DNA from: a virus
Length of the DNA: 64,000 nucleotides
Strand: one strand, 5' to 3'
Virus record (IMG/VR): IMGVR_UViG_3300042863_000214
Location: 1 to 64,000 of that record
Part shown: piece by piece, positions 1 to 31,760 of the stretch
Numbering within the stretch: the stretch's first letter is position 1
How the letters are laid out: the number at the start of each line of letters is the position of its first letter
Translations under genes and position numbers: made by a program
The notes under the pieces: model-generated
Database searches by the model: none
What the model was told of the DNA's origin: nothing
Seen by the model: the letters and a program-made list of their open reading frames with translations, nothing else

Positions 1-357
1 GTTAACAGCTCGTGCTACTGTGGCTAATCCACCACCTACAGCACCAGCTAAGGCATTCAGTGCAGTTCTACTGTCACCAGCTTCTAATGCATCAGCGGCA
101 GCGGCTATAGCTTTGATCAGTCGAGTCTGTGGAATAATGTCAGTTACCTTGTCTAATAAGGGATACTGTTTCATCCAACCGTTCAGCTTGTTTAACAAGG
201 TTTGTGGTTGTTCTTTTTGGGGGTCTATGGTACCTATGAGTGCCTGTATGTCAGCTACATCTTTTGGTGTGGGAGTTGGCTCTACTGTATCTGTAGGTGA
301 TGCCATTACTTCTGCACCTATTTGTGGCTGTGGTGTGACTAGTTCTTTTATTAGCAT
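1..357 (-). CDS. Hypothetical protein, 3' part outside the window
   Basis: The minus strand is open from an ATG at 357 to the left edge of the window, 119 codons without a stop, so only the N-terminal part is visible. The visible protein starts MLIKELVTPQ, has a Pro/Thr-rich stretch at about residues 20-32, and then a helical, Ala- and Leu-rich segment ending in an Ala/Gly-rich patch. I do not recognise the family. A late-promoter-like motif ends four bases upstream of the ATG, suggesting late expression and so a virion role. The plus-strand ORF covering the same bases is judged to be a shadow. Confidence 0.6.
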   Translation of the reverse strand, partial: MLIKELVTPQPQIGAEVMASPTDTVEPTPTPKDVADIQALIGTIDPQKEQPQTLLNKLNGWMKQYPLLDKVTDIIPQTRLIKAIAAAADALEAGDSRTALNALAGAVGGGLATVARAVN

Positions 358-361
358 TGAC

Positions 362-369
362 TATTTATC
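362..369 (-). promoter_or_regulatory. Late-promoter-like motif GATAAATA
   Basis: Read on the minus strand this is GATAAATA, one base from the T4 late consensus TATAAATA. It is followed by GTCA and the ATG of the leftmost gene. The spacing puts the predicted transcription start at or next to the start codon. Confidence 0.5.
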
Positions 370-427
370 AGGTTTGCCTTGTCTATTATCCCAATGGGAT
401 ACATATGCATACTAACAGGAGCTAACT

Positions 428-466
428 ATGACTAAAATACCCAACGGTACAGAGATTAACTGCTAA
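428..466 (+). other. Tiny plus-strand ORF (12 codons) with a strong ribosome binding site
   Basis: AGGAG at 417-421 is followed six bases later by ATG and 12 sense codons (MTKIPNGTEINC) before TAA. No plus-strand gene follows, so it is not an obvious leader peptide. It may be the remnant of a decayed gene or chance. Confidence 0.25.
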
Positions 467-491
467 CATAATTGATTTAAAAATCTGTTTT

Positions 492-512
492 GGCGCTGCG
501 CCGCTTCGCGGC
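492..512. repeat. GC-rich overlapping palindromes
   Basis: Two short inverted repeats overlap: GGCGC-T-GCGCC (492-502) and GCCGC-TTC-GCGGC (500-512). They can form alternative stem-loops. On the minus strand they follow the stop of the gene ending at 530, and a run of Ts comes about ten bases later, so this may act as a terminator. The very GC-rich composition contrasts with the AT-rich surroundings and resembles bacterial intergenic palindromes. Confidence 0.4.
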
Positions 513-529
513 TACGACTCTGGTGGCCG

Positions 530-955: not shown

Positions 956-987
956 GATTCGCTACCTTGTTGAGTTTTATATACACG

Positions 988-995
988 TACTTATC
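988..995 (-). promoter_or_regulatory. GATAAGTA promoter-like motif
   Basis: The minus strand reads GATAAGTA here, 32 bases before the start of the gene ending at 955. The same eight bases occur in both arms of the divergent promoter at 42103-42154 and just before the terminase small subunit gene, suggesting a variant of the late promoter. Confidence 0.35.
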
Positions 996-1026
996 TTTTA
1001 TTGATAAAAATCATGTTACAGTAAGA

Positions 1027-2526: not shown

Positions 2527-2529
2527 TTA

Positions 2530-3309: not shown

Positions 3310-3314
3310 TATCT

Positions 3315-3343
3315 ATTATACTCTCTTTATACGTTAATTGCAA
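3315..3343 (-). promoter_or_regulatory. Sigma70-type promoter for the SGNH gene
   Basis: Minus strand: TTGCAA (3338-3343), a 17-base spacer, then TATAAT (3315-3320), then five bases to the ATG at 3309. It overlaps the end of the upstream carbamoyltransferase homologue. The predicted mRNA would be essentially leaderless. Confidence 0.6.
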
Positions 3344-4271: not shown

Positions 4272-4378
4272 TTGTAAATAAATGGATCGCGTTTACGCAG
4301 TTCTTCAAGACGCTTATTAAATGCTTTGCGTTCCTGCCAGCGTCTGTAGGGCGTTAGTAGCCAATTAATAAATTTCAT
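4268..4378 (-). CDS. Small basic protein, 36 residues
   Basis: A short ORF starting MKFINWLLTPYRRW and ending KRDPFIYK, rich in Lys, Arg and aromatic residues, probably one amphipathic helix. Its ATG overlaps the primase stop (ATGA) and its stop overlaps the start of the carbamoyltransferase homologue (ATGA), so it is translationally coupled at both ends, strong evidence that it is a real gene. Function is unknown; the position suggests a co-expressed small accessory protein. Confidence 0.75.
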   Translation of the reverse strand: MKFINWLLTPYRRWQERKAFNKRLEELRKRDPFIYK

Positions 4379-5364
4379 TCTTCTTCCTTCTTAAACCATT
4401 TACGTGCTTGTAACTGTATTTTTAAATTGTTAGATTCTTTTGAGCTTATGATACTGTATAGTGTATATAATTTTCCGTATTTGATAACTGCGTCATTTAC
4501 GTCTTTAACGCCTTCGGTCCATTCAGGAAAAGCTACACTCCATCCATATTCTAGTGCCTGTTCAACCATCCTATAACCAGCGTCATCTCTATCTGCTACC
4601 ACTATAACTTCACGCTGTAGTTGACTAATTAGTGCATGTTGGCTTACGCCGATCTCAGCACTCATTACAGCAACACCGTCTATACAGATAGCATCAATAG
4701 GGCCTTCTGTTACTATGACATATTTACGTTCGTAATGTTGTCTGTCTAAATTAAACACATATCCGGGCTGTTGTTCACTTATGTACTTGGGTTTACCAGT
4801 TGTAATCTTACGGGCAGTATATCCAACTAGCCTATGTTCGTGATAAAAAGGAATAATTAGTCTATTGCTAAATCCATCTTCATCAGTCCAATGCCAAGGA
4901 TAATCATCTACGTATAGGTTGCGGCTGGCTAGGTATTCCAATACTGGTACTAGCTCGTCTGAGGGATGTTTAATCCATTCTGTTAAAGGCTTAGTGCCAA
5001 TAGGCAAGGCTTTGTCAATAAATGTGGGTATAAGACCTTGCTCACCTTTGTATGAACTGTCTTCTTCGATGCGCATAGCCTCTAGACTACATTTGGTAAT
5101 GGTATCGTCTGCAACACCTAGCCATTGCATAAGACGTTTTAATTTAACCGATACTTTGCGACCTGGTTGCCAACTGGCTTTGAATCCACAGTTAAAGCAA
5201 TGATAGCTAACACCTTCATTAACCATAATGCCGCCACGCTGTCTATTGTCAGCTGATGTCCCGTTATGGTGACAGCATACCGCATTGAAGCTGACCCAAC
5301 CACTCGGGGTTACTTTACGTTTTGCAGGGAGGTATGACTGTACTGTATCTATGATTAAACTCAT
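4375..5364 (-). CDS. 61: DNA primase (T4 gp61-like)
   Basis: A 329-residue primase making RNA primers for lagging-strand synthesis with gp41. An N-terminal zinc-binding domain is visible: Cys30/Cys31 and neighbouring His residues paired with Cys56 and Cys59 in the HCFNCGF knuckle. A TOPRIM core follows, with VTEGPIDAICIDG giving the catalytic Glu and VVADRDDAGYRM giving the metal-binding Asp pair. Length is close to T4 gp61 (342). It is first in the operon ending with the helicase. It has a near-perfect sigma70 promoter with the start codon six bases past the -10 and no ribosome binding site. Confidence 0.93.
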   Translation of the reverse strand: MSLIIDTVQSYLPAKRKVTPSGWVSFNAVCCHHNGTSADNRQRGGIMVNEGVSYHCFNCGFKASWQPGRKVSVKLKRLMQWLGVADDTITKCSLEAMRIEEDSSYKGEQGLIPTFIDKALPIGTKPLTEWIKHPSDELVPVLEYLASRNLYVDDYPWHWTDEDGFSNRLIIPFYHEHRLVGYTARKITTGKPKYISEQQPGYVFNLDRQHYERKYVIVTEGPIDAICIDGVAVMSAEIGVSQHALISQLQREVIVVADRDDAGYRMVEQALEYGWSVAFPEWTEGVKDVNDAVIKYGKLYTLYSIISSKESNNLKIQLQARKWFKKEEE

Positions 5365-5370
5365 AGTTAC

Positions 5371-5399
5371 ATTTTACAGTATTGCTGTTACTTTGTCAA
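5371..5399 (-). promoter_or_regulatory. Sigma70-type promoter of the primase operon
   Basis: Minus strand: TTGACA (5394-5399), a 17-base spacer, TAAAAT (5371-5376), then GTAACT and the primase ATG. It overlaps the 3' end of the structural gene at 5374. Consensus -35 and ideal spacing make this one of the clearest promoters in the window; it predicts a leaderless mRNA. Confidence 0.7.
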
Positions 5400-6195: not shown

Positions 6196-6198
6196 TAC

Positions 6199-6206
6199 TA
6201 TTTATA
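6199..6206 (-). promoter_or_regulatory. Late promoter TATAAATA
   Basis: An exact T4 late consensus on the minus strand, facing the structural gene at 5374-6195. It overlaps the first base of the divergent plus-strand gene at 6206. Confidence 0.65.
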
Positions 6207-10045: not shown

Positions 10046-11506
10046 TTATTTCCAGTCTATTTTCTCGATCGTGAACGGGTACTTAGCGTCCTTGTAAAAC
10101 TTCTTACGTTGCGTGAGATGGCGCTTGGCGTATTTGCAGGTACTTGTAACGTCCCAGATTTGGACAAAGTCTTTGTCGTCTGCACGTCTAATGCCTCGCC
10201 CAATGCTTTGTATAACCCTTGTAAAGCTCTTTCCGGACTCCACCATAACCAGATTAAAAATACGGGGGATATTAATACCCACAGCGGCCACACCGTAAGT
10301 CGCCACAATAATCTTGTTATCAACAGTTTTAATTTCATCGTATTCACTCTTTCTATCTTTAGTTTTTACTTCACCTGAAATAAAGACACTATCTGGAATT
10401 TCGTTAACAATGAATTTACCTGTCTCTATTCGATTTACCAGTACAAGGGTATTACCACTATTACTAATGCCATTTACTAGTTTTGATATAAAAATCATCC
10501 TGTCTTCATCAGTGACAAGATACTTGTATTCTTCTGCATATGACTTAAATTCAGGTAAGTCAATAAGTTGTGTTATGTTTACATGGCAGTCACTTAAAAC
10601 ACCTTGTGCTTGTAATTCATGTGCGTGAACTTCGTGTACACAGGGTCCAAGACTTACAAAAATTTGCTGTGCTTCAAAATCTTCTTTAGGTACAGTGCCA
10701 GTTAAACCCCAACGAATAGGAGCATTGTTAAAGTTCTGTGTCAGCAAATTTCTCAACACAGTAGCTTTAGCCATGTGTACCTCGTCTACCATAATTGTAG
10801 TAACACCGTCAAGAAATTCTGCAAGTGTTAATATGTCTTGCTCGTGATTTTTACTTTTCTTGTCGAGTATATTAAGACTCTGCCAAGTGGCAATAGTGTG
10901 AGTTTTATAGAGATCTTTGCGATCACCATAGTACACACCTACATCAAGGCCGCAGTTGATAAAATCTTCTTCTGTTTGTTCAACAAGACTTTTATTAGGT
11001 ACAATAGTAAATGTTCGACCGTAAGGTTCACAAATCTTTGCTAATGTTGCTGTGGTTATTGTCTTGCCAAAGCCAGTGGCAATTTCCTGTAAACACTGAG
11101 GATTTTCAAGAAATTTATTTACTACTTCAACTTGATCTTCACGCAGTCTAATTGGCTGACCTGCAAATCTGTGTCCAACAGGCCAGCATTGATCTCCCCA
11201 AAAGTCTGCTTCTACTTTAGGAAACTGCAAATTAATGGCTGCACGATTGTCGATAATTTCTGTTATCTCAACGCCGCTTTTTTCCAGTACTTCTAAGATC
11301 TTTGGCAGCTGGCTTAGGTAGCCGTTACCACCTAATCCAAATAATGTAATTGCTCCATCCCACCTACCTAACTTATATGCTGGACGATAACGAGCAGTAG
11401 GGTCCTCATACTTAAATGTATTTGCTAACTTACGTCGAATTTCAACAGGAAGTCCTTCTACCTTAAGATTTACCTCATCTTGAATGATCAATTTACACGA
11501 TGGCAT
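10046..11506 (-). CDS. uvsW: UvsW helicase
   Basis: A 486-residue superfamily 2 DNA/RNA helicase that, in T4, remodels stalled forks and Holliday junctions and removes R-loops, ending origin-dependent replication. Visible motifs: N-terminal domain of about 110 residues, Q-motif-like IRLREDQVEVV, Walker A TGFGKT (144-149), motif II DEVH, motif III LTGT, and motif VI QSIGRGIRR. Length matches T4 UvsW (about 500). Its start overlaps the upstream gene by 14 bases, so it is expressed from the promoter at 12675-12703 or further up. Confidence 0.95.
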   Translation of the reverse strand: MPSCKLIIQDEVNLKVEGLPVEIRRKLANTFKYEDPTARYRPAYKLGRWDGAITLFGLGGNGYLSQLPKILEVLEKSGVEITEIIDNRAAINLQFPKVEADFWGDQCWPVGHRFAGQPIRLREDQVEVVNKFLENPQCLQEIATGFGKTITTATLAKICEPYGRTFTIVPNKSLVEQTEEDFINCGLDVGVYYGDRKDLYKTHTIATWQSLNILDKKSKNHEQDILTLAEFLDGVTTIMVDEVHMAKATVLRNLLTQNFNNAPIRWGLTGTVPKEDFEAQQIFVSLGPCVHEVHAHELQAQGVLSDCHVNITQLIDLPEFKSYAEEYKYLVTDEDRMIFISKLVNGISNSGNTLVLVNRIETGKFIVNEIPDSVFISGEVKTKDRKSEYDEIKTVDNKIIVATYGVAAVGINIPRIFNLVMVESGKSFTRVIQSIGRGIRRADDKDFVQIWDVTSTCKYAKRHLTQRKKFYKDAKYPFTIEKIDWK

Positions 11507-12668
11507 CTACCCCTCCTAAGGGACGTTTATCATTGTAGTATACTATCAAATCAACTGAATTGCAATAGACACTGGTTTTATTGCTTTTAAAATTATTTGA
11601 GAATGATACTACACTTGATGGATACCAACCATTTTTTAGCATGAATTTTGGTAATTTATTATTTGCAATACCTGCTACCTGTGTCTGTTGATTTAATTTA
11701 GAGTTGTAATCTAATTGTGAAATTAAAGAATTAAATTCTTTGTTATTATCACTGCCACTATCAAATCTAAAATAAATCCCGATCTTATCAAGGTCACTAT
11801 TTTTCAGTGATTTTTCCAATTTTTTGAGGTTTTGTAAACACTCTTTAGAGTCATGACCGTTGAACACAAATAGTACAGGTAATCGATTTAATTTGTATAG
11901 TGCCGTAACTAACTCATCAAGTGGGGTAGTGTTACTATCAATCCATACTCGAGGTGACGGCCTGTTAGCCAGTGAATTTTTCAGTGAAATTTCTGGATTT
12001 TTTGGAAAAATTGTGAATTGAAATTTCAAGCTTCGATCGTTTAACATAATCAAATTGTCGTCTGATATCTGACCAATTTCATTATGCACCGCGGTAATTA
12101 ATTTTTCATTAGTTAAATTAAACACATCAAACTGGGTTGACTTTCTTGAGCGAATTTCTGAAATTTCTTGGTAAAATTTCATAATAATTGGATCTACTTC
12201 GAACCCATGTGATTTGAACACTGCGACTATCTGGTAGAGATTTTTTTCAGTTAGTGGTACACTATACTGCCTGTTATTAATCGACAGCATCTGACCTTCG
12301 ATGATTTTATTGAGGTCAGTGATTTGCTGTCGTAGACGTTTATTATGGGTAAATTCCACTATGATTCGGCCATCGTGGTCTTTGGATAAGAAAATTTTTC
12401 TAACCTGTTCAATCACTCTAAAGGGGTGTGTCCATGTGGGATTATCAACAACAGTGCGAGTGGTAGACGTTGGATCAAAAATATGTTGATCGTTTTCTTT
12501 GAGAATTTTTATCAGTAATTTTGACTGATTTTCAGTCAAAAATTGACCCGATGTAATTTGCCTAGCAAGACTGATTAAAACTTTTTTATCTCTGTTGGCA
12601 ATCTGAGAACTTAAGGTTTCAATGCCTTGACGGGACAGCTCTATGAGCAATGTGTCTACTGTTATCAT
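11493..12668 (-). CDS. Uncharacterised protein encoded next to UvsW
   Basis: A 391-residue protein with a helical N-terminus (about residues 1-60) and a long alpha/beta remainder; the segment around residues 245-300 (VWIDSNTTPLDEL, LPVLFVFNGHD) resembles a Rossmann-like domain. The C-terminal segment KFMLKNGWYPSSVVSF is distinctive. No Walker or metal motif is evident. Position between uvsY and uvsW suggests a recombination-linked role, an inference from context only. A consensus sigma70 promoter lies immediately upstream with six bases between the -10 and the ATG. Confidence 0.75.
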   Translation of the reverse strand: MITVDTLLIELSRQGIETLSSQIANRDKKVLISLARQITSGQFLTENQSKLLIKILKENDQHIFDPTSTTRTVVDNPTWTHPFRVIEQVRKIFLSKDHDGRIIVEFTHNKRLRQQITDLNKIIEGQMLSINNRQYSVPLTEKNLYQIVAVFKSHGFEVDPIIMKFYQEISEIRSRKSTQFDVFNLTNEKLITAVHNEIGQISDDNLIMLNDRSLKFQFTIFPKNPEISLKNSLANRPSPRVWIDSNTTPLDELVTALYKLNRLPVLFVFNGHDSKECLQNLKKLEKSLKNSDLDKIGIYFRFDSGSDNNKEFNSLISQLDYNSKLNQQTQVAGIANNKLPKFMLKNGWYPSSVVSFSNNFKSNKTSVYCNSVDLIVYYNDKRPLGGVDAIV

Positions 12669-12674: not shown

Positions 12675-12703
12675 ATTATACTAGAGTATAAGTTAAAAGT
12701 CAA
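12675..12703 (-). promoter_or_regulatory. Sigma70-type promoter before the uvsW operon
   Basis: Minus strand: TTGACT (12698-12703), a 17-base spacer, TATAAT (12675-12680), then CTAACT and the ATG at 12668. The promoter fills the gap after uvsY, and the predicted transcript starts at or next to the AUG. Confidence 0.7.
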
Positions 12704-15923: not shown

Positions 15924-18098
15924 TTATCTAAACATAGAATTGAAGCGTTTGAACATTTCAGAAACATCAGCTTGTGGCTTTTGTAGTCCATGCTCAGTAA
16001 TGCCAGCAAGTTGGCGCATACGTTTTGATTCGTATACTTGTGATAGCTCACTGATTACACTGTGTGCCATCTTGGCTGCATCTTCACCAAATTGTTTTTC
16101 AACTGCTAATAATACACCAGTTTCTCCCTTTGGAAAATTACCAGTTGTCTCATCATACATTGATTTAACAAATTCAATTACTTCGTTTTGTTTACCAGCG
16201 CCTTCAAAGAATTCTTCAACATCCATTCCAGCCTTAGCAATAGCTTCACCTAGGCTCATTTCACCTGAACCAAAGTTAACCATAGTCTCAGCAGTGGCAC
16301 CAGCTTTCTTGGCTTTAGCGATAGCGGCGGCCATACCTTTCTTAGCAGCGTGGCGAGCAGGATTCTTAACAACATTACCAAACTGATCTTTGTTGTCGCC
16401 TGGCTTTTTGTAAGGACCATCAAAAGGAGGATCTTCTTTTTCTTCAGCTACTGGTGCAGGTGCCGCAGGTACTGCTGCTGGATCAACTGGGGTCGCTACT
16501 GGAGCAGGCGCTGACGCAACAGGTTCGGCTGGAGGTGCTGCCGGAGCAGGCTCAGTGGGTGCAGGAGTAGTAGAATCAAAATTAATCTTACTGGCAATGT
16601 CTGTACCGTTTTCTTCGTCGTGCTTCTCTAGGTAACTCTTTAGGAATTCTCTAATGTCCATTTCTGGATTTACCTTACCTAGTTGTTTAATTGCATCGAC
16701 AAATTCTTGATCGTCAATTACACCTTGCAAACTTTGAATAGCATTGGTACCATCTACACCTGCTGGGAATTCTTGTGCAATTAGTTGATTTAATGTTTGT
16801 ATTGATGCACTTTGACTTTCTTCGTCAGTGTTAAACAAATCACTTTCTTCACTGACTAGATTATTTAAGAATGCTTCGAATTGATCTTCTTGATCTAAGT
16901 TGGCATACTTTTTATAACGACTCTTTTCGTCTTTGTGTCTAAACGCAACTTTTTCACCGTCATCGTAATCAGTCTTTTCATGCTTAACACCGTGAGCAGT
17001 CTTAGTAACCTTACCGCCTTTGTGTGTAGTACCAGTTTCTTTATCGCCGTCAAAAACTTCATCAAGTAAATCATCTGCTGTTAGTTCTTTGATAACATCA
17101 ACTTCTTCGCCTACTAGTTTGTAAATGTATGGGAATACATTTTTTAGTTCTTCATTAAAACTGCGAATAGTTAAACGATCAATCCAATCATTAACTACAT
17201 CTTCTGGAATCTCTTGTGCTTCATTAACCACAAACGATTCTGCAAATGATTCGTAATAGCTTTGATTTTGTAAGCTACGGATTTCTTTCTTAACTTGATC
17301 AATACGCTCGTATACCTTAGTTTGTATCGTGCCCATTGCTTCGCTAACCATAGAGTTGCGATCAACATAGCCTTTGAACATGCGTAGTTTGTTTAGTTCT
17401 TCACTTAGACCAGTAATGTGCTGACCAATACCATCATATGGTGTACCACCGTGTGCTACATGAGTAGCTAGGGCGCGAGCACCATTCAAATGCTTCACTG
17501 GATATTTAAAACGTTCACCCTGACTGTTCTCAACATGGATGCTTTCAATGTGTAGTGTACGACCAGCTGCATGGGCATAGTTTACAGGTTGGGTGTGTCT
17601 AACAATTAGTTTAGCTTCGCCCATCTGTTGATAACTAGTCTTAGATGTGCCCCATAGTTTACTTTCAGTCATACTGCCGTCTCCGTTATTCTTGGCTAAA
17701 TGTTGATAATCTCGTTTATCTAAATTCTTTTTTGTGATGTCACGTATAGAAAAATGCATCATCTTTTGTTTGGCAAATTCTCTAAGTTCCCTTAAAAAAT
17801 TAAACCATTGTCTTTTTACACTATCGGGTTGATCGTCAGTTATGTCATTACTGTACATAACAACCATTCCGTCATTGTCAGCTAGGTCGTCTTCAGCCGC
17901 CTCACTTTCAGCATCGGCAATGCTGATGCTGATAGATCCTAAATTCTTTCCGTTTTTTACAAAATCAAATTCGAAAAAACGAGCGTCGTTAGGGCGATCA
18001 GTTACGTCACTATTTGCATCACCAAGTTTAATTTTTGGAAATTGTGTGCGAATTTTTCCAAATAGTTCTTTAGCGATTGGTTCGAGATTCTTGTCCAT
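15924..18098 (-). CDS. Large uncharacterised late protein
   Basis: A 724-residue protein. Residues about 1-170 look folded, with the conserved-looking stretch FLRELREFAKQKMMHFSIRD; about 300-500 is helical and acidic; about 506-560 is a Pro/Ala/Val-rich linker; the last 160 residues are helical with an Ala/Lys segment and a C-terminal KRMRQLAGI motif. Similar proteins occur in uncultured aquatic T4-like phages; I cannot assign a function. Its late promoter motif and position after the terminase gene favour a virion or packaging role. It starts five bases after GATAAATA, without a ribosome binding site. Confidence 0.7.
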   Translation of the reverse strand: MDKNLEPIAKELFGKIRTQFPKIKLGDANSDVTDRPNDARFFEFDFVKNGKNLGSISISIADAESEAAEDDLADNDGMVVMYSNDITDDQPDSVKRQWFNFLRELREFAKQKMMHFSIRDITKKNLDKRDYQHLAKNNGDGSMTESKLWGTSKTSYQQMGEAKLIVRHTQPVNYAHAAGRTLHIESIHVENSQGERFKYPVKHLNGARALATHVAHGGTPYDGIGQHITGLSEELNKLRMFKGYVDRNSMVSEAMGTIQTKVYERIDQVKKEIRSLQNQSYYESFAESFVVNEAQEIPEDVVNDWIDRLTIRSFNEELKNVFPYIYKLVGEEVDVIKELTADDLLDEVFDGDKETGTTHKGGKVTKTAHGVKHEKTDYDDGEKVAFRHKDEKSRYKKYANLDQEDQFEAFLNNLVSEESDLFNTDEESQSASIQTLNQLIAQEFPAGVDGTNAIQSLQGVIDDQEFVDAIKQLGKVNPEMDIREFLKSYLEKHDEENGTDIASKINFDSTTPAPTEPAPAAPPAEPVASAPAPVATPVDPAAVPAAPAPVAEEKEDPPFDGPYKKPGDNKDQFGNVVKNPARHAAKKGMAAAIAKAKKAGATAETMVNFGSGEMSLGEAIAKAGMDVEEFFEGAGKQNEVIEFVKSMYDETTGNFPKGETGVLLAVEKQFGEDAAKMAHSVISELSQVYESKRMRQLAGITEHGLQKPQADVSEMFKRFNSMFR

Positions 18099-18103: not shown

Positions 18104-18111
18104 TATTTATC
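18104..18111 (-). promoter_or_regulatory. Late-promoter-like GATAAATA, five bases from the ATG
   Basis: The minus strand reads GATAAATA-TCAAT-ATG into the gene at 15924-18098. It sits right at the 3' end of the terminase gene. The spacing predicts a leaderless transcript. Confidence 0.55.
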
Positions 18112-18112: not shown

Positions 18113-19705
18113 TTAATTAGTTGAAACAAAGATAGGCATTGGCAGTTCGTAGTCTTCATTACCTGCGTCATCATTACTACTAAAACTATCAAATACCCTT
18201 GAATCCCAGTCTGCAAGCACTTGACTCATACGGACTATCAGTAATAATGCACTGACTAGATCGTCCTCTTCTCCGCTTTTTGCTTTGAAGCTAACACCTG
18301 TAACAATGAATGCCTTAAGCTCTGATATTAGGGGTTTACTGCTAATCTTCATTTTGTTAGATTCGATTAGGTGTTTTAATCTAGCAGCCGCTGATATTTT
18401 AGTCTTGTGTGTAGTATTAAATCCCTTACGGAATTTACGCACATGGCCTTTTCTAATTGGCTCGCTTACAAATAGTCCTGGAAATTGATCTTCCCCAATG
18501 TCTCGAATACAAACTAGTCCTGCTTCACCTATGTTATTATTTTCAACAGACCAGTATATATTTCCGCTGTTGTCACTGCCTATGCACTCTTGTATATAGG
18601 TTAGTATTTCTTTTAGAATTCGAATTTGTCCTTGTATAGGAGTTAAATTATGATGCCATTCGCCTACTTGCGTAAACGAAGGTAATTCAAATATTTGTAT
18701 AGCTGCCGAGTTGCCACCTGTACCTAGACTAGGATCAAGACTAATAGCATAAATGTTATCTTTACTGAGTTCTTTGTACCAGCGAGTTTGCCCCATGTTC
18801 ATTATAGGTTGCTTGCCTTCCATTCCGGCAAGGTGAATACTGTTGATTAGTGTTTCATCATAGACTAAGAATTCACAGTTGTATTCACGACGGAATCGTT
18901 CTTCTCCAATACGCCCACGTTCAGTTGTTGCCCATACATCATCACGGTCCGGATGTTCACTCCACGCACAGGTAAAGGGGAAGAAACCATTGATACCTGT
19001 TAGTTGTTCATTGCCAAACTCATCAAACTTCTTATTGGCTTCTTTCCATATAATAGCAAATGTATCTTCATCACTGTTAGGTGTTGATGTTAGAATTGCT
19101 CGACCACCAGTTGCTAGTGTCGGGGAAATTGAAGTCCAAAACTCATCGGCGATATTTGGAGGTACGAAAGCAAACTCGTCACAGTATAGTAGGGAAATAG
19201 ACATACCACGACCTGTGTTGCCAGTAGTAGTTGTAGAGACAATACGTGATCCATTATCAAACTCAATAGAGCCCTTGTTATAGTTTACCACTCCTGAACG
19301 AATATGATCAGGACATAGTTCATATGCGTATCGAATACGCTGCATAATTTCCTGTGAGCCAGTAAATTTATGCGCTGAAATAAGAATAGTTTGGTCTGGA
19401 TGAAACATGGCAAACCATAGTAAATAGCCAGCGGCACAGGTAGTCTTACCCATCTGACGAGGCAACATGTTTACATTAAATCGATGATTATGATATGCAT
19501 CTAACAGTCTAGTTTGGAAATCAAATGGTGCAAACAACATTTTACCTTTAACCGGATGCTGTATGTAAAAATAGTTCTTACAGAAATAATGATATCCTGT
19601 AGTGGGGTCAGAACATGCGATTAAATCTTCAATGTGTCGCTCAGTGAAGGTTTCTCGAGTATGCGCCTTTTTGGTAAGGACGCCGTCTAGTGATTTAGTT
19701 GCCAT
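18113..19705 (-). CDS. 17: Terminase large subunit (T4 gp17)
   Basis: A 530-residue packaging motor that pumps DNA into the prohead and cuts concatemers. ATPase: Walker A LPRQMGKTT (81-89), Walker B SLLYCDEF (171-178, catalytic Glu177), coupling motif LTSTPN. Nuclease: a C-terminal RNase H-like domain starting ISLDPSLGTGGNSAAI with its metal-binding Asp. T4 gp17 is 610 residues. A terminator separates it from the upstream gene, and TGTAAATA lies five bases before its ATG, so it has its own late promoter and probably a leaderless mRNA. Confidence 0.96.
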   Translation of the reverse strand: MATKSLDGVLTKKAHTRETFTERHIEDLIACSDPTTGYHYFCKNYFYIQHPVKGKMLFAPFDFQTRLLDAYHNHRFNVNMLPRQMGKTTCAAGYLLWFAMFHPDQTILISAHKFTGSQEIMQRIRYAYELCPDHIRSGVVNYNKGSIEFDNGSRIVSTTTTGNTGRGMSISLLYCDEFAFVPPNIADEFWTSISPTLATGGRAILTSTPNSDEDTFAIIWKEANKKFDEFGNEQLTGINGFFPFTCAWSEHPDRDDVWATTERGRIGEERFRREYNCEFLVYDETLINSIHLAGMEGKQPIMNMGQTRWYKELSKDNIYAISLDPSLGTGGNSAAIQIFELPSFTQVGEWHHNLTPIQGQIRILKEILTYIQECIGSDNSGNIYWSVENNNIGEAGLVCIRDIGEDQFPGLFVSEPIRKGHVRKFRKGFNTTHKTKISAAARLKHLIESNKMKISSKPLISELKAFIVTGVSFKAKSGEEDDLVSALLLIVRMSQVLADWDSRVFDSFSSNDDAGNEDYELPMPIFVSTN

Positions 19706-19710: not shown

Positions 19711-19718
19711 TATTTACA
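19711..19718 (-). promoter_or_regulatory. Late-promoter-like TGTAAATA before gene 17
   Basis: Minus strand TGTAAATA-ACATT-ATG. It lies directly after the terminator at 19722-19745 and so restarts transcription for the terminase gene. Confidence 0.5.
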
Positions 19719-19721: not shown

Positions 19722-19745
19722 AAAAAGAGGCCACCAGGGCCTCTT
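19722..19745. terminator. Intrinsic terminator upstream of gene 17
   Basis: AAAGAGGCC and GGCCTCTTT form a perfect 9-bp stem with a short loop. On the minus strand the stem ends in a run of Ts, so it terminates the transcript of the gene ending at 19764. Confidence 0.85.
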
Positions 19746-19763
19746 TGAGTAGCTTATAGCTGA

Positions 19764-20988: not shown

Positions 20989-21468
20989 TTATTTATTCAT
21001 ATTTTTTAGTTTTTCGATCAAACTATTGCGGTCTGATACAATTACACCTGTACCAGTAACATCTATTCCGTTGTCGTCATGCCCGGCATCTTGATCAAGT
21101 TTTTGTTTCTTAAGCTGTAGTTCAATCATCTTAAGTTTCTTATCAATTTTGGCAGCTTTGGCATCAATAGCATTTTTTAACATGCCGCCTGCTACTTCAA
21201 AAATACGTCCACTGTATCGTGCTTCTACGTTCATGCCTAGGTCCATTAGGTCGTCATAGGCATCAGTTGCTCGTTGTGCGAGCGCATCAAACTCACTGTC
21301 ACTAGCATCGCCAAGACCTTTAACTGCAGGTAGTGCAGCCGCTATTTTGTCAAATTCTGACATGTCGCGAAGAAAAGGTTGTGCAACTTCTGCTGCCTTT
21401 TCCTTTTCAGCTTTTTTGATAGTCTTTTTGCTTTCAGGCAAATTTAGGATTTCTTCAAGTTTTTTCAT
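20989..21468 (-). CDS. 16: Terminase small subunit (T4 gp16)
   Basis: A 159-residue, mostly helical protein that regulates gp17 and recognises DNA for packaging. The central segment (DAYDDLMDLGMNVEARYSGRI followed by FEVAGGMLKNAID) and the long coiled helix (KIDKKLKMIELQLKKQKL) match the central domain of gp16 in aquatic T4-like phages. T4 gp16 is 164 residues. It lies two genes upstream of gp17. GATAAGTA lies five bases before its ATG on the minus strand, a possible promoter. Confidence 0.8.
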   Translation of the reverse strand: MKKLEEILNLPESKKTIKKAEKEKAAEVAQPFLRDMSEFDKIAAALPAVKGLGDASDSEFDALAQRATDAYDDLMDLGMNVEARYSGRIFEVAGGMLKNAIDAKAAKIDKKLKMIELQLKKQKLDQDAGHDDNGIDVTGTGVIVSDRNSLIEKLKNMNK

Positions 21469-21476
21469 AATAATAC

Positions 21477-21914
21477 TTATCTCACTTTGCCATTGTGAAA
21501 TAAGTCTTGTTCATTTAATACTCTAAATTTTATACCTTGTTTAGCACACCAGGCGTATGCTGCTCGCCACTTGACTTGATTCTTAGCATACTGTAATTGG
21601 TTATGTCGATTCTTTCCCACTTTCTCAAATACTGTTTGATTTTGCGGCTTTACTTCAATCAGTTCAACTTGCATTTTACCCTTGGCATCTGCGTATTGTA
21701 TAAAGAAGTCAGGAACATACACTGTACCTTTGCCGGTAAAGGGATCTTTGTAGGGGATTTTAATGGCTTCACTGGCCCATTTCATTATGCGAGGATCTTG
21801 GTCACAGAATCGCATAAAGTGCCATTCCCAAGAGCTACGATATGTTGGAAGTTTATTTCCTACATACTTGTCTGGGTTGGTTAGTGTAAATTTACCTTGA
21901 GCAAAGCGACTCAT
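21477..21914 (-). CDS. 4: Head completion nuclease-like protein (T4 gp4)
   Basis: A 145-residue protein. The pattern RSSWEWHFMRFCDQDPRIMKW, YVPDFFIQY and ELIEVKPQNQ gives the Glu, Asp and Glu-x-Lys residues of a small PD-(D/E)xK-like nuclease fold, as in T4 gp4 head completion proteins. In T4 this protein is needed to finish DNA-filled heads. Its start overlaps the stop of the upstream gene by one base. Confidence 0.88.
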   Translation of the reverse strand: MSRFAQGKFTLTNPDKYVGNKLPTYRSSWEWHFMRFCDQDPRIMKWASEAIKIPYKDPFTGKGTVYVPDFFIQYADAKGKMQVELIEVKPQNQTVFEKVGKNRHNQLQYAKNQVKWRAAYAWCAKQGIKFRVLNEQDLFHNGKVR

Positions 21915-22291
21915 TACGGTTTAATATTTCGACTTTCTATAGTTTCTTCTATTTGTATAATTTTGAAACCCAGCGCCGAAGATTTTTCTCGGTATATGTT
22001 TAGTACTTCAGTAACCACTTGGCTTAGCTGGACATCAGTCAGTCCCTTTAAGGTATCTAACAATTGAAATACTGGAATGTTGTCAATACGAGCTTGATTT
22101 AGTAAAACAATACTTGTACTTTTTGCAGCTTCTTCTTGAAAGCCACGTTTTAAAAAGTATCCTAATACTGCATCAATTTGATTGCTAGGAAAAGTAACTT
22201 GATGCTGAAAATATCGATCAAAGAAATTTTTAACTTGATCGGCACTGTCATTACTGGTGGTTACTTTAGGTAAATTTAATGTAGTACTCAT
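21914..22291 (-). CDS. Conserved hypothetical structural-module protein
   Basis: A 125-residue, helix-rich protein. Segments FFDRYFQHQVTFPSNQIDAVLG and RGFQEEAAKSTSIVLL are typical of an uncharacterised protein encoded beside gp4 in T4-like cyanophages and their relatives. It overlaps the neighbouring genes by single bases at both ends, so it is translationally coupled with gp4 and the tube-like protein. No function can be assigned from motifs. Confidence 0.75.
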   Translation of the reverse strand: MSTTLNLPKVTTSNDSADQVKNFFDRYFQHQVTFPSNQIDAVLGYFLKRGFQEEAAKSTSIVLLNQARIDNIPVFQLLDTLKGLTDVQLSQVVTEVLNIYREKSSALGFKIIQIEETIESRNIKP

Positions 22292-23373
22292 TATGGTCCT
22301 AGATTTCTCGGTGTTGCTACAGTATTTACAGCACCACCATTGTTAACTGGGAATGAAAAATTAGTTAATCCGCTAATTGGTTGGTTTACAATAGTTCTAG
22401 CACCAGTAACGGCTGCATTGTATCCAGCGGTGCTTAATTCATTCCTTACACCGGCGGCGTTAAGATTTCTTGCACTGTTGTACGTGTTAATAGCCTGTGT
22501 ACCAGTTCGTAATATATCGTTAATAGTAATATTACTCGGATCTGCCAACATGCTCGATACTGCACCAAATACTGACTCGGCGCCGGCTAACACACCTGCT
22601 GGGCCAAATAAATTATTACTGGAGCCACCTGCTAACTTTAACGGACTTGGCAATGTATCATAATGATCTTCAGCAAAGCCTGGAGGATCGCCTTGACGCA
22701 CATATCCAGTACCGTATGTTACTGCTTCGTATGCCACAGTCATAGATTGTTCAGCAGGTATGCTTGATCCATAATCTAAGGTGTCATGATTCCATGCTGT
22801 AATAACTGGATTGACTAATGTATAGCTGGCATATTGCTTGTTAGCCATTTGATAAATTGTAATCTTTTGAAAAAATGGTATACTGCTATTATTGTCAAAC
22901 CCGTAAGGTGTTTTAATAAAAGACGAACCTGCCATTGCTGTTCTGTTGTATGAGCCTGCTTGCTTTGCTACTGTAGAGTCTGCGTAATAATACGCAAAAT
23001 AATTTTCCCATAGCTGACGTGTAACTCCTAATCTATCATCATGAAATGAAATATTAATAGGAGTGTAATCAACTTTGTTCTGTACAATCTTTTTTCTGTT
23101 GTATTGATTTAATGTTTCTGTGGCAATAGTAAATTTAGGTAGGTCACATTTCTTAACCAACATGTTAATTTCGTTTCTATGACGATAATCAAAATTTAAA
23201 CTTTTTAATGCTCTTGTATCAATACTAAAAGATACATGATAGTTAAACTTGCTTTTAGGTGCCAGTCTAAAACTATCATCAACAAACAATCGTGATGCAT
23301 GACGGAAGTCTGCAACATTGCCTTTGGGGTTACTTATGTCAGTAATGAACTGACCAAATGATTTGTCTGCCAT
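22291..23373 (-). CDS. Tail tube-like / baseplate-tube junction-like protein
   Basis: A 360-residue protein. Residues about 38-240 show the alternating beta pattern of tail tube-fold proteins, including the segments KFNYHVSFSID, KKCDLPKFTIATETLNQYNR and YTPINISFHDD. The last 120 residues are Ala/Gly/Asn-rich. T4 uses tube paralogues gp48 and gp54 to nucleate the tube on the baseplate; this protein could be such a tube initiator. The exact counterpart is not certain. It follows gp19 after a terminator and starts five bases after a GCTAAATA motif. Confidence 0.7.
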   Translation of the reverse strand: MADKSFGQFITDISNPKGNVADFRHASRLFVDDSFRLAPKSKFNYHVSFSIDTRALKSLNFDYRHRNEINMLVKKCDLPKFTIATETLNQYNRKKIVQNKVDYTPINISFHDDRLGVTRQLWENYFAYYYADSTVAKQAGSYNRTAMAGSSFIKTPYGFDNNSSIPFFQKITIYQMANKQYASYTLVNPVITAWNHDTLDYGSSIPAEQSMTVAYEAVTYGTGYVRQGDPPGFAEDHYDTLPSPLKLAGGSSNNLFGPAGVLAGAESVFGAVSSMLADPSNITINDILRTGTQAINTYNSARNLNAAGVRNELSTAGYNAAVTGARTIVNQPISGLTNFSFPVNNGGAVNTVATPRNLGP

Positions 23374-23378: not shown

Positions 23379-23386
23379 TATTTAGC
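23379..23386 (-). promoter_or_regulatory. Late-promoter-like GCTAAATA, five bases from the ATG
   Basis: Minus strand GCTAAATA-TTAGT-ATG into the tube-like gene. It follows the strong terminator at 23417-23447 and so would reinitiate late transcription. Confidence 0.5.
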
Positions 23387-24103: not shown

Positions 24104-24111
24104 TATTTATA
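24104..24111 (-). promoter_or_regulatory. Late promoter TATAAATA of gene 19
   Basis: An exact late consensus on the minus strand, 18 bases before the gp19 ATG, with AGGAG between. The predicted leader is about a dozen bases and carries the ribosome binding site. Confidence 0.8.
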
Positions 24112-27360: not shown

Positions 27361-27392
27361 TTTGGAATCTCCTAAGGTTCTTGTTCTACATG

Positions 27393-27400
27393 TATTTATA
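27393..27400 (-). promoter_or_regulatory. Late promoter TATAAATA of gene 18
   Basis: An exact late consensus on the minus strand, 32 bases before the sheath ATG, with AGGAG nine bases before the start. It is one of a divergent pair with the plus-strand motif at 27458-27465. Confidence 0.8.
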
Positions 27401-27457
27401 GCATTTGGTTAAAAATAGCTGCTAATACACCTAAGAAAAGGGGGCAAAAAGGTCCGG

Positions 27458-27465
27458 TATAAATA
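27458..27465 (+). promoter_or_regulatory. Late promoter TATAAATA before the HNH gene
   Basis: An exact plus-strand late consensus. It overlaps one possible ATG (27465) and ends five bases before the next (27471), so the downstream ATG is the better start and its mRNA would be leaderless. Confidence 0.65.
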
Positions 27466-27470
27466 TGTGT

Positions 27471-27812
27471 ATGACAAGACCTCTGTGTATTTGCGGTTTA
27501 AGACCCGCTGCCGTTAACTATGTTAAGAACGGACGTATATATTATCGTAAACGATGCGAAGCATGTCTGCATCACGGCGGAATACGCAGTGGAGAACCTA
27601 AGTGGTATAGGGACGGTTATCGAATGAAGTCAGACTGTGATAAGTGTGGATATAAAAGCAAACACCGAGAACAGTTTAACGTATTCCATGTGGACGGAAA
27701 TCTAAACAACTCCCGCCCTGCTAATCTCAAGACAGTGTGTGCAAACTGTCAGAGGACTCTTCACAAGGAAGGGTTTCAGTGGAAGCAGGGTTCTCTAAAA
27801 CCAGACTTTTAA
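27471..27812 (+). CDS. HNH endonuclease-like zinc protein
   Basis: A 113-residue protein from the preferred ATG at 27471 (an ATG two codons earlier lies inside the promoter). N-terminal CICG and CEACLHHGG and central CDKCGYKS with VCANCQRT give two zinc-knuckle pairs; FNVFHVDGNLNNSRPANLKTVC has the His-Asn arrangement of HNH nucleases. Such proteins are homing nucleases or packaging-related nicking enzymes. The last 86 bases overlap the 3' end of the convergent gene 1. Single-gene plus-strand insertion between gp18 and gp1 fits a mobile nuclease gene. Confidence 0.8.
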   Translation: MTRPLCICGLRPAAVNYVKNGRIYYRKRCEACLHHGGIRSGEPKWYRDGYRMKSDCDKCGYKSKHREQFNVFHVDGNLNNSRPANLKTVCANCQRTLHKEGFQWKQGSLKPDF

Positions 27813-28422: not shown

Positions 28423-28430
28423 AAAAGTCC

Positions 28431-28946
28431 TTAAATAAAATTTAAATTTAATACAACACGAAATTGTTGATCAGTACAGGTAGTACCGCTGTGTCGATCA
28501 TCTGCTGAGAATATTACCATTCGATTAGCCACACTATTAATTTTTTCACCGTCTTTTTCGAATATAGTAAAGCCATTGTTGCTGTTAATATATAACACAG
28601 CAGTTTTTGATATCGCAGTCACGTCAGACCACGGTACGTCACAGTGATACCCATGTATTTTAATTTTTTCGGCTCGTGGATTTAAATTTACTTTTGCTTT
28701 TAACAGTACACGGAGATCCGGTTGAAGTCTAGCTATAATTGGTTCTATCAATCTAAATGAAGGTGAGTAATGCCGTGGATGATAAAACGAATGTACTAGT
28801 TGCCAGTTGTCTAAAACGTCAACTAATTTAGGAATATCGTAGTTCAATACCGTGTCTAGATGCCACGGGAAAAAATCACTTATTATCTCTGATTGAAATG
28901 CTTTGAATTCATCAGTTGGCAAAAAATTATCAATTATTTGTCTCAT
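28431..28946 (-). CDS. 2-oxoglutarate/Fe(II)-dependent oxygenase-like protein
   Basis: A 171-residue protein with HCD in HGYHCDVPWSD (about residues 120-122), a distal His in DDRHSGTTC (about 153), and an Arg in FRVVLNLNF for 2-oxoglutarate: a complete HxD...H...R set. The middle strand AVLYINSNNGFTIFEKDG fits the jelly-roll core. Substrate unknown. It lies upstream of gene 1 and has its own consensus sigma70 promoter with the ATG five bases past the -10, so it is probably expressed before the late phase. Confidence 0.8.
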   Translation of the reverse strand: MRQIIDNFLPTDEFKAFQSEIISDFFPWHLDTVLNYDIPKLVDVLDNWQLVHSFYHPRHYSPSFRLIEPIIARLQPDLRVLLKAKVNLNPRAEKIKIHGYHCDVPWSDVTAISKTAVLYINSNNGFTIFEKDGEKINSVANRMVIFSADDRHSGTTCTDQQFRVVLNLNFI

Positions 28947-28951
28947 AATCT

Positions 28952-28980
28952 ATTATATAACAAATAGATTACATGGTCAA
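28952..28980 (-). promoter_or_regulatory. Sigma70-type promoter before the oxygenase gene
   Basis: Minus strand: TTGACC (28975-28980), a 17-base spacer, TATAAT (28952-28957), then AGATT and the ATG. An inverted repeat AATCTATT/AATAGATT (28947-28954 and 28963-28970) overlaps the -10 and could be an operator. Confidence 0.7.
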
Positions 28981-28985
28981 GAGAT

Positions 28986-29363: not shown

Positions 29364-29656
29364 TCTTCACAATTCCATTTTCTTAGTGCCAGTGCTTTAC
29401 GAGTTGGTTTGCCGTTGGGCTTTTTCATTGGACCGTCAACACCTCCCATTCTAGCACAGAATGATTTACGACGTTTGGCTGCTTTGCTGCCTGCTTTTAA
29501 TTTACTAGGTTTAGTAGTAACTGCTGTCTGTAGTTTGCTACCTGGGTTCTCACGACGATAGCTGGCTACACCTTTGGCATTAAGTCCACCCTTTTTACTC
29601 TTGCCTTCTTTGCGTCTCCACGCAGCTGACTCTGAAATAATTTCGTATACTTTCAT
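29360..29656 (-). CDS. Small basic DUF6321-like protein with the same leader
   Basis: A 98-residue, very basic protein starting MKVYEIISESAA. Its body GGLNAKGVASYRRENPGSKL and KAAKRRKSFCARMGG matches a widespread phage and bacterial family of unknown function (I believe DUF6321). Strong positive charge and an internal-protein-like leader suggest DNA association inside the head, by analogy with T4 internal proteins. It lies between the neck gene and the sister leader gene. Confidence 0.7.
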   Translation of the reverse strand: MKVYEIISESAAWRRKEGKSKKGGLNAKGVASYRRENPGSKLQTAVTTKPSKLKAGSKAAKRRKSFCARMGGVDGPMKKPNGKPTRKALALRKWNCEE

Positions 29657-29658
29657 AA

Positions 29659-30420
29659 TTAACCTATAATAAAAGCATAACCAGTGCCACCACTGATTAA
29701 GGTTTCTAATTCTTTGTCTAATGCGGCTAGTTCTTCTTTACCAGCCGACTTTAAGTCATTACCATTTAGCGCACCGCCACCTTGTGGTCCAGCGATAGAT
29801 GCAAATTTAGAGCGTGCCTCACCTAACATCATTTTACAGTTAGCTAGTGAATAGTCACGTATCCATTGTTTAGCATAAATGTCGTCAATGATAAGATAAT
29901 CTGGTCTAAAATTCTGTGTGCGTAGACCTATTACTTCGCCTTCACTAAATGGACGTTGTAGTATTCTTAGTGTGCGGCTTGTAGGAATCCATTGGAATTC
30001 AATGTATGCTCCGAACATTTTACCAATCATTTCTTGATAACTAGCAAACATAAAGTAGGTAGCAATACCACCCAGCATGGTGCTGTTTAACAGATACGTG
30101 TTAGTGTACGCAAGATTGAAAGGCTCAAAGTTTGTTCCAGTTCCACCTCCAGTTCTTGATCCCAATGTTCTTCTAAAAACAGACTGAACATTAATAATTT
30201 CTGCAGGCAGTATGTAATCATTTTTATCTTTCTCAAGTGTTAAGAAACTGTAGCTTTCTTCTACTGCATTTGGACTACGTTGGCGGAATCGTGTTAGCGC
30301 ACGATCTAATGCTGTTTCATAATGAATTGGATCAAGCTCAACGTCAATCATACCGTCACCTAGCATGGCGCGGCAATAATCAAAAACTTGCTGTTTAACC
30401 TGTTGTGGATTGTCTGACAT
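29659..30420 (-). CDS. Neck / head-tail connector protein (gp13-like)
   Basis: A 253-residue protein. The N-terminal segment VFDYCRAMLGDGMIDVELDPIHYETALDRALTRFRQ-type helix pair, the strand DYILPAEIINVQSVFRR and the C-terminal DYSLANCKMMLGEARSKFASI helix are typical of T4-type neck and connector proteins in aquatic phages. I judge it to be the gp13 counterpart because gp14 and gp15 lie next to it on the opposite strand. T4 gp13 is 309 residues. A late-promoter motif and GGGAG lie upstream. Confidence 0.7.
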   Translation of the reverse strand: MSDNPQQVKQQVFDYCRAMLGDGMIDVELDPIHYETALDRALTRFRQRSPNAVEESYSFLTLEKDKNDYILPAEIINVQSVFRRTLGSRTGGGTGTNFEPFNLAYTNTYLLNSTMLGGIATYFMFASYQEMIGKMFGAYIEFQWIPTSRTLRILQRPFSEGEVIGLRTQNFRPDYLIIDDIYAKQWIRDYSLANCKMMLGEARSKFASIAGPQGGGALNGNDLKSAGKEELAALDKELETLISGGTGYAFIIG

Positions 30421-30435
30421 TTGTATCTCCCATCT

Positions 30436-30443
30436 TATTTATC
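30436..30443 (-). promoter_or_regulatory. Late-promoter-like GATAAATA (leftward)
   Basis: Minus strand motif 15 bases before the gp13-like ATG, with GGGAG in between. One half of a compact divergent promoter with the next entry. Confidence 0.55.
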
Positions 30444-30451
30444 GCTAAATA
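30444..30451 (+). promoter_or_regulatory. Late-promoter-like GCTAAATA (rightward)
   Basis: Plus-strand GCTAAATA followed by seven bases and the gp14 ATG at 30459. No ribosome binding site fits between, so a leaderless transcript is predicted. Confidence 0.5.
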
Positions 30452-30458
30452 TTGTACT

Positions 30459-31760
30459 ATGCCACGTTTATCCCTTTACAAGCCCGAGAAAGGCAATGAT
30501 TACAAATTTCACGATCGCAGTATATCTGAGATGTTTCAGGTAGGCGGTACTGACATATATCTGCACAAATACTTAGGACCTAAAAATCCCCTAACAGGTG
30601 AAAGTACTGCGGATATGCCTATGTACGATGCTGTAAAAGAAACAAATATACAAGATTTATTGTTCCTTGAAAATCGTGATAGAAAGTATGACAGCTCAAT
30701 TTATACAGTACGTGGCGTTTATAACGTATCTGACATTGACTTTAACCTAAGTCAGTTTGGTTTGTTCATTGACAATGACACAGTTTTTATGACTGTGCAT
30801 ATTAATGATTTTATCAAGTTAGTGGGACGTAAACCGCTAGCAGGTGATGTGGTAGAACTGCCGCACTTACGCGATGAGTTTGCACTTAATGATGCTGACC
30901 AAGCCCTTCCGAGATTCTTTGTTGTTAGTGAAGTTGGACGTGCCGCCGAAGGATTTAGTCGCACATGGTACCCACACCTATACAGATTAAAATTAGGCAA
31001 GATTGCTGATCAACAACAGTACTCAGACATTCTTAAAACTCCTACAGATAAAGATGCTAACTTTACAGGAGATTATAGTCCAACAACAACATATGCAGTT
31101 GGAGAAATTATTCGCTATCAAGGCACACTGTATCAAGTTACCGCAGCTACTACAGGCAGAGCTCCGCCAAATGCCAGTTACTTTAGTGTATACTCTGGCG
31201 CCACTATACAAAGCATTTTAAGTACACAGACAAAAAGTCTTGAGATCAATGATGCTATTCTTGACCAAGCAGAAGCCAATGCTCCTAAGAGTGGTTATGA
31301 AACCCAACAATTTTATTCACTATCTGCTGACGAGTTTGGTAACCCTGCACTTATCACAGTAGACGATGCAACAACTCCGCCAGATGCTTCTAGTATGCAG
31401 ATGGATGCAAGTAGAATCGGGGCTAGACCAAATCGTACTGGCTATAGCGGATACTTGTTAGGTGATGGCATTCCCCCTAATGGTGTTGATTTTGGGCACG
31501 GAATTGCCTTTCCTGCAGGTGCTATTGACGGCGACTTCTTCTTAAGAACTGACTTTTTACCCAATAGATTATTTAGATATGACGGATCACGTTGGGTTAA
31601 ACGTGAAGATGCGATTCGTACTACCTTGTCAAATACCGATACTAAACAAACTTTCAGAACTGGGTTTATTAATAATACAGCAACTGATAACATCGCTGGT
31701 GAGAATGTTGCAGAACGTCAAGCATTGAGTAAAGCACTTAAACCTAAGGCAGATTTATAA
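30459..31760 (+). CDS. 14: Neck protein (T4 gp14)
   Basis: A 433-residue neck protein that seals filled heads and joins them to tails. I chose the ATG at 30459 (MPRLSLYKPEKGND) because it matches the conserved gp14 N-terminus; an upstream in-frame start would lie in the divergent promoter. Conserved segments: FQVGGTDIYLHKYLGPKNP, IQDLLFLENRDRKYD, GVYNVSDIDFNLSQFGLF. Residues about 207-240 (YSPTTTYAVGEIIRYQGTLY...) resemble the carbohydrate-binding-like modules of the giant fibre and look like an inserted decoration. Confidence 0.88.
   Translation: MPRLSLYKPEKGNDYKFHDRSISEMFQVGGTDIYLHKYLGPKNPLTGESTADMPMYDAVKETNIQDLLFLENRDRKYDSSIYTVRGVYNVSDIDFNLSQFGLFIDNDTVFMTVHINDFIKLVGRKPLAGDVVELPHLRDEFALNDADQALPRFFVVSEVGRAAEGFSRTWYPHLYRLKLGKIADQQQYSDILKTPTDKDANFTGDYSPTTTYAVGEIIRYQGTLYQVTAATTGRAPPNASYFSVYSGATIQSILSTQTKSLEINDAILDQAEANAPKSGYETQQFYSLSADEFGNPALITVDDATTPPDASSMQMDASRIGARPNRTGYSGYLLGDGIPPNGVDFGHGIAFPAGAIDGDFFLRTDFLPNRLFRYDGSRWVKREDAIRTTLSNTDTKQTFRTGFINNTATDNIAGENVAERQALSKALKPKADL

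Follow-up and report, generated by a model that had tools for sequence, protein, structure and literature searches.

The window analyzed here (positions 1 to 64,000 of the 98,432-base virus record IMGVR_UViG_3300042863_000214) encodes T4-like myovirus proteins, namely primase, DnaB-like helicase, UvsX, single-strand binding protein, large terminase, tail tube, sheath, and a gp15-like stabilizer, and outside the window the record also carries genes for a major head protein and a late sigma factor of the gp55 type (L003:13679-14500, minus strand; phrog_12791, E 5e-76). This complement of T4-type structural and replication genes is that of a T4-like myovirus. Since contigs related to it extend to 364,554 bases, the record probably represents only part of a jumbo phage genome, the full size being judged from relatives of 354 to 365 kb. 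When terminases are compared, its nearest isolates are PA5oct-like phages (56% identity). Our subject is a set of eleven starts in the window at which a promoter ends 4 to 7 bases before the ATG (hereafter, the gap) without a Shine-Dalgarno (SD) sequence, seven of them with late-type (TAARTA) and four with sigma70 promoters, and the leaderless mRNAs that this geometry predicts.

The four sigma70-like promoters, all on the minus strand with 17-base spacers, are present as the initial annotation had described them: TTGCAA-17-TATAAT at 3315..3343 (gap 5 to ATG 3309), TTGACA-17-TAAAAT at 5371..5399 (gap 6 to ATG 5364), TTGACT-17-TATAAT at 12675..12703 (gap 6 to ATG 12668), and TTGACC-17-TATAAT at 28952..28980 (gap 5 to ATG 28946). 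ATG 5364 opens the DNA primase gene (4375..5364, minus; phrog_47, E 1.6e-39), which is predicted to be leaderless, as is a 391-amino-acid protein (11493..12668, minus) with no PHROGs match and a hit to DUF2624 only below the Pfam cutoff. The gene starting at 28946 (28431..28946, minus) matches the PHROGs family "DNA endonuclease V" (phrog_274, E 3.8e-43) and is possibly leaderless.

Late motifs had likewise been placed 3 to 7 bases before seven starts, and this stands for six ATGs (357, 18098, 19705, 23373, 27471, and 30459, at gaps of 4, 5, 5, 5, 5, and 7) and fails for GTG 6195, which is not a start. A late-type TAAATA at 362..367 (minus) precedes ATG 357, whose gene runs off the window. On the same strand, TAAATA promoters at 18104..18109, 19711..19716, and 23379..23384 precede, respectively, genes for a virion structural protein adjoining terminase (gp20-like; 15924..18098; phrog_13484, E 1.5e-15), the large terminase (gp17-like; 18113..19705; phrog_36964, E 5e-121), and a second tail-tube-like protein (tube2; 22291..23373; phrog_13438, E 2.7e-17), all predicted to be leaderless. 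The first reading missed a seventh late-type start, ATG 21468, which has the variant TAAGTA (GATAAGTA) at 21474..21479 (minus, gap 5) and opens a predicted leaderless gene for a possible small terminase subunit (20989..21468, minus; phrog_16202, of unknown function, E 2e-14; phrog_445, terminase small subunit, E 5e-6). On the plus strand, TAAATA at 27460..27465 and 30446..30451 precedes two further predicted leaderless genes, one HNH-endonuclease-like (27471..27812; phrog_2255, E 5.6e-6) and one for a virion structural protein (30459..31760; phrog_11591, E 3e-85), likely a neck protein from its place before the gp15-like gene.

We compared these spacings with dinucleotide shuffles and with relatives. 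TAAATA occurs at gaps of 3 to 7 before 5 of 84 starts in the record, compared with a mean of 0.67 in 500 shuffles, none of which reaches 5; strong sigma70 promoters at gaps of 4 to 8 precede 4 of the 84 (shuffled mean 0.07, maximum 1). Start 27471, whose gene was not called by the gene caller, lies outside this 84-start count. The record holds 92 copies of TAAATA on both strands, and in a tally blind to gene position only gap 5 stands out (7/92), a weak signal taken alone.

Eight of the eleven starts could be tested in relatives, and in all eight the spacing is retained. We counted diverged clusters, keeping one upstream region per group at <70% identity to limit near-copies; shuffle controls for the eight genes gave mean cluster counts of 0.10 to 1.02, and the largest single shuffle gave 3. 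A sigma70 promoter lies at gaps of 5 to 8 before primase in 58 of 66 unique upstream regions (39 of them at 6; 56 without an SD) and persists down to 53% protein identity (tight in 24/28 diverged clusters); near promoters of the same type precede the 12668 gene in 27/35 unique upstream regions and 21/28 clusters. Among late-type starts, TAAATA lies just before the terminase ATG in 78 of 80 relatives despite indels and base changes (40/55 clusters), the exceptions being L071, without TAAATA, and L081, with TAAATA about 25 bases upstream and an SD. The gap before the gp20-like gene is at most 8 in 76/78 relatives and exactly 5 in 72 (35/48 clusters). Tight late promoters precede the 21468 gene in 161/168 homologs (25/30 clusters), tube2 in 41/41 relatives (20/20 clusters), and the 27471 gene in 27/27 relatives (24/25 clusters), and the gap before 30459 is 4 to 7 in 50/51 unique upstream regions (15/16 clusters). 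Clusters that miss include leadered forms with an SD (L239, L253), changed sequences, and cases such as L130, in which the rule rejected a weak −35 although the −10 is correctly positioned. Where the tight promoter has been lost, orthologs often bear an SD leader instead (e.g., L081/L253, L239). As for the remaining starts, 357 has no homologous start among the relatives' loci examined, and at 28946 the promoter is found only in the phage's own copy (L168), three other starts at 37 to 42% identity being without it.

In the eight genes, the promoter-proximal ATG is confirmed as the start codon: N-terminal residues are conserved from that codon (at 30459, P1.00 R0.94 L1.00 S1.00 L1.00), and an in-frame stop usually lies just upstream. 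GTG 6195, by contrast, is not a true start. The codon-based caller had missed the true starts of terminase and of the genes at 12668, 28946, and 30459.

Beside these genes stands a class in which the same promoters lie farther from the start. Late motifs occur 14 to 45 bases upstream of 21 called starts in the record, 16 of which have an SD match, so the initial claim that promoters at a distance are paired with a ribosome binding site is borne out. TAAATA at 24104..24109 (minus, gap 18) precedes an SD leader to the tail tube ATG 24085, with an SD in 43/43 relatives, and TAAATA at 27393..27398 (minus, gap 32) precedes an SD leader to the tail sheath ATG 27360, with gaps of 27 to 35 and an SD in 27/27 relatives. 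The gap at 20971 is 16 to 22 in 70/70 relatives, and the gp32-like gene has an SD in 43/43. Strong sigma70 promoters lie 20 and 19 bases upstream of L003:13633 and 14500 (the late sigma gene), both with an SD. At ATG 30420, a divergent late promoter (TAAATA, 30436..30441, minus, gap 15) leaves a short SD leader, and in 47 of 48 unique upstream regions the gap is 15 to 20, all with an SD. The 38-base gap between 30420 and 30459 is thus common to two divergent late promoters, the minus one with a minimal SD leader and the plus one predicted to be leaderless, and both layouts are conserved.

A tally of promoter-to-start distance across genomes, which the initial annotation had proposed as a check, makes the tight class stand out in all three near-complete relatives compared (G001, G004, and G005; 354 to 365 kb). 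In G001 (364,554 bases; 414 or 401 genes depending on codon model, 401 in the six-genome tally), late-motif distance is bimodal, with 33 starts at 0 to 8 bases (16 at exactly 5), 2 at 9 to 13, and 69 at 14 to 45, and an SD is present in 0/33 of the first group and 43/69 of the last. Its sigma70 distances divide similarly: 9 starts at 6 to 7 and 1 at 0 (0/10 with an SD), none at 8 to 16, and 25 at 17 to 35 (21 with an SD). TAARTA at gaps of 4 to 7 precedes 28 of 458 starts in G001 (shuffled mean 4.3, maximum 9 in 200 shuffles), and TAAATA at exactly gap 5 precedes 12 of 458, compared with 0 to 2 for each of 14 letter permutations. With one method throughout and 40 shuffles for each of six genomes, late promoters at gaps of 4 to 7 were observed/expected 28/4.8 times in G001, 23/3.5 in G004, and 28/3.1 in G005, compared with 3/6.4 in PA5oct, 1/1.2 in Phosso (first 318 kb, here as below), and 0/1.8 in T4; sigma70 promoters at gaps of 5 to 8 gave 8/0.33, 9/0.25, and 14/0.23, compared with 1/0.40, 2/0.07, and 0/0.35. 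The tight class is a property of these uncultured phages; T4, PA5oct, and Phosso do not have it as a class. Leaderless use had been described as widespread, which fits to the extent that the class takes in about one-tenth of genes (40/414 in G001), not most.

Where would transcription begin? A sigma70 −10 element ending 6 bases before an ATG gives a transcription start at or next to the A, and 6 is the usual gap for the −10 end, as 5 is for the late motif. The late motif is a TATAAATA-like box that requires no −35 element, as in T4-type late promoters; its box and flank preference (ATAAATA) are shared by the leadered and leaderless sets, and a gp55-type sigma factor is present in 10 of the 11 records searched. 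In T4, according to PMC2988020, roughly one turn of the helix separates the late TATA box from the transcription start downstream of it. Since the box ends 5 bases before the ATG here, the predicted transcription start again falls at or next to the A.

We therefore think it highly probable that uncultured T4-like jumbo myoviruses of a large group have two translation-start modes set by promoter position, because the spacing is kept in eight genes while surrounding sequence diverges, because unrelated promoter types each lie at the gap needed for a start at or next to the A, and because the tight class extends across the genomes of three near-complete relatives but, as a class, is missing from T4, PA5oct, and Phosso. 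The initial proposal, that one phage combines two start modes and that primase, terminase, and neck genes are among the leaderless ones, is on these grounds still the best reading, leaderless transcription itself being predicted from promoter geometry. In the leaderless mode, the promoter would be placed so that RNA polymerase starts at, or 1 to 2 bases before, the A of the ATG, from host sigma70-type promoters for early genes such as primase and from gp55-type late promoters (RATAARTA) for terminase, tail-tube-like, neck, and other genes, and the ribosome would start on a 5′-terminal AUG without SD contact. In the leadered mode, the same promoters about 14 to 45 bases upstream would yield a transcript carrying an SD leader.

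Terminators bear on how far other transcripts could interfere. A terminator hairpin (19724..19746, minus) lies directly upstream of the terminase promoter, and one is found in this position in 71 of 106 unique leaderless-type terminase upstream regions, with 24 distinct stems, and in 31 of 44 for tube2; read-through therefore cannot easily supply a leader at these two genes.

Several observations weigh against the two-mode reading. The same terminator check found none upstream of the gp20-like gene, 30459, or primase, which leaves room for longer-leader read-through transcripts at these three genes. A loose SD pattern is also matched by 22 of 76 tight gp20-like upstream regions; in the rows inspected, these matches overlap or precede TAAATA and would thus fall outside the predicted transcript. 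SD absence alone is not diagnostic, because no SD is recognized at 26 of the 69 late starts with leaders in G001. At 3309, 13 homologous starts (10 unique, the best 37% identical) include none with a sigma70 promoter. Finally, terminase has changed mode several times, with at least 10 label changes on a tree of 79 representatives, so the leaderless mode is not essential to terminase. On this quick tree, which has some long branches, SD-type terminases L253, L352, and L347 are nested in leaderless groups; the leaderless label is dominant, and 10 changes compare with a shuffled mean of 17.9, none of 500 shuffles being as low. On the PA5oct side of the family, tight TAAATA precedes 39 of 80 terminases, and many of the 30 without TAAATA have TAAGTA at gaps of 4 to 5.

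The most durable alternative accepts the promoters as real and holds either that translation proceeds mainly from longer read-through transcripts or that transcription begins a few bases into the gene, the tight promoters acting on behalf of genes downstream. Several tight-promoter genes do lie in one-strand clusters, and three lack the upstream terminator, as would suit read-through. However, diverged clusters hold the promoter to within a few bases of a fixed distance from the ATG, a precision that promoters of downstream genes would not require. In addition, 30459 and 27471 have no close same-strand gene upstream, and terminase and tube2 are preceded by terminators; we consider this alternative improbable. 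Less probable still is that the AT-rich TAARTA is a translation signal (an A/U-rich standby site) rather than a promoter, with the mRNA starting further upstream. AT-rich bases before start codons aid initiation in some bacteria, and the leadered late starts with no recognized SD would agree with such a role. Against it, the sigma70 class has a −35 element about 30 bases upstream in the same register, with no role in translation; permuted hexamers show no peak; the same late motif lies 14 to 45 bases upstream of other genes; and terminators stand immediately upstream at terminase and tube2. Chance in an AT-rich genome, to which the many TAAATA copies and the gene-blind count lend some color, has almost no remaining probability; the shuffles at starts in the record speak against it, and it is refuted for the class as a whole by conservation in relatives and the tallies in three relatives. 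These results uphold the original statement that the spacing is too regular for chance, although it may hold for single cases such as 3309.

What divides genes between the modes may be related to dose. SD starts are found at genes for highly made proteins (major head, or major capsid, protein; sheath; main tail tube; gp32-like), and the codon score of leaderless late genes in G001 (median 0.197, n = 31) is lower than that of SD late genes (0.248, n = 43; p 0.009), which suggests, with a score trained on long genes, that leaderless starts suit lower dose. More tentatively, promoter position might assign early and late genes to 5′-AUG or SD initiation such that output moves from one class to the other as ribosome state changes during infection (phage bS21, initiation factor levels, more free 70S), an idea that we regard as rather unlikely. 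Genes for bS21 are present in three relatives of >350 kb. We considered bS21 as the cause of the leaderless class and set it aside: it does not track the class, because 5 of 7 isolates tested, PA5oct among them, also have it. No IF3 was found in the 10 relatives searched. In a related isolate, Vibrio phage 2.275.O (L250:31702-32933), adjacent genes are annotated as IF-3, bS21, and L7/L12-like, a translation-takeover cluster.

If the two-mode reading is true, the host must translate 5′-AUG messages well enough for terminase and primase, which helps the host search. The sigma70 promoters and frequent SD sequences presumably speak against a Bacteroidetes host. The G001 bS21 has its best match in Burkholderiales (43 to 44%) in a pattern-biased scan, and we name no host from it.

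Leaderless mRNAs are common in Deinococcus and mycobacteria, and the −10 element of bacterial leaderless genes lies a few bases from the ATG. The phage genes resemble them in having no SD and an AUG predicted to lie at the 5′ end or beside it. They differ in that they form a minority class, conserved among lytic T4-like jumbo phages, which spans early and late genes beside a leadered class with the same promoters. PMC9031893 describes bacterial leaderless mRNAs in the same terms, as lacking an SD and having the AUG at the 5′ end or adjacent to it, and gives lambda cI and Deinococcus deserti as examples. T4 late promoters share the TAAATA box and gp55-type sigma factor with this phage; unlike here, where 23 to 28 starts per near-complete genome have TAARTA at gaps of 4 to 7, T4 has it at 0 of 284 starts, and in a 45-kb T4 region an SD accompanies 13 of 14 late-motif starts at gaps of 9 to 28. 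PA5oct-like and Rak2-like jumbo myoviruses (PA5oct, Phosso, Atu_ph07, CBB, GAP32, and 121Q), the nearest isolates by terminase at 41 to 56% identity, share the terminase, primase, and 30459 genes with this phage; PA5oct (three late and one sigma70 candidates) and Phosso (one and two) nevertheless have no leaderless class. A single leaderless candidate in a cultured phage is PA5oct 144985 (L248:46986), in the gene just upstream of primase, with TAAATA at gap 5 and no SD; the other of the two best candidates in PA5oct is the start at 158242, with a sigma70 promoter at gap 7. Unusual initiation in huge phages is noted in PMC7162821; the present group is like huge phages that lack SD sequences and carry S1- or S21-like ribosomal proteins in the bS21 of its large members and unlike them in that about 40 to 50% of its starts still have an SD. 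Phage transcripts are said often to be leaderless in a passing remark within PMC5312081.

Leaderless mRNAs and T4-type late promoters are thus both already known. Searches of an open-access library, largely without subscription journals and preprints, turned up no description of such a conserved leaderless class for either T4-like or jumbo phages. If true, the reading would mean systematic, conserved leaderless gene use in lytic T4-like phages, and key genes would be given wrong starts by standard gene callers and by prediction that relies on SD sequences. Orthologs that have changed from a leaderless to an SD start, or back, while keeping the same promoter would provide a natural experiment, so the purpose of leaderless initiation could be tested gene by gene.

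A few candidate starts were rejected. GTG 6195 was dropped as a leaderless start, as relatives begin at ATG 6177 (MQKISSYLYPNR); the late-type TAAATA at 6199..6204 (minus) lies 21 bases upstream of that ATG, which is leadered, and is 16 to 25 bases upstream in the window and most relatives (60 unique upstream regions, 11 near and 49 far). At the HNH-endonuclease-like gene, ATG 27465, which gives the longest open reading frame, was dropped in favor of 27471, the start conserved at gaps of 4 to 7 in relatives. Also removed from the leaderless list were the uncalled alternative starts 6195 (gap 3), 8475 (sigma70, score 9/12, gap 5), L002:19393 (TAAGTA, gap 7), which looks coding, and, in L003 coordinates, L003:7628 (gap 2).

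Elsewhere in the window, two genes stand out for their great length, 3602 codons at 47125-57933 and 1989 codons at 57983-63952, and a tryptophan-halogenase-like gene and two carbamoyltransferase-like genes lie in 33755-38335 and 3327-4271.

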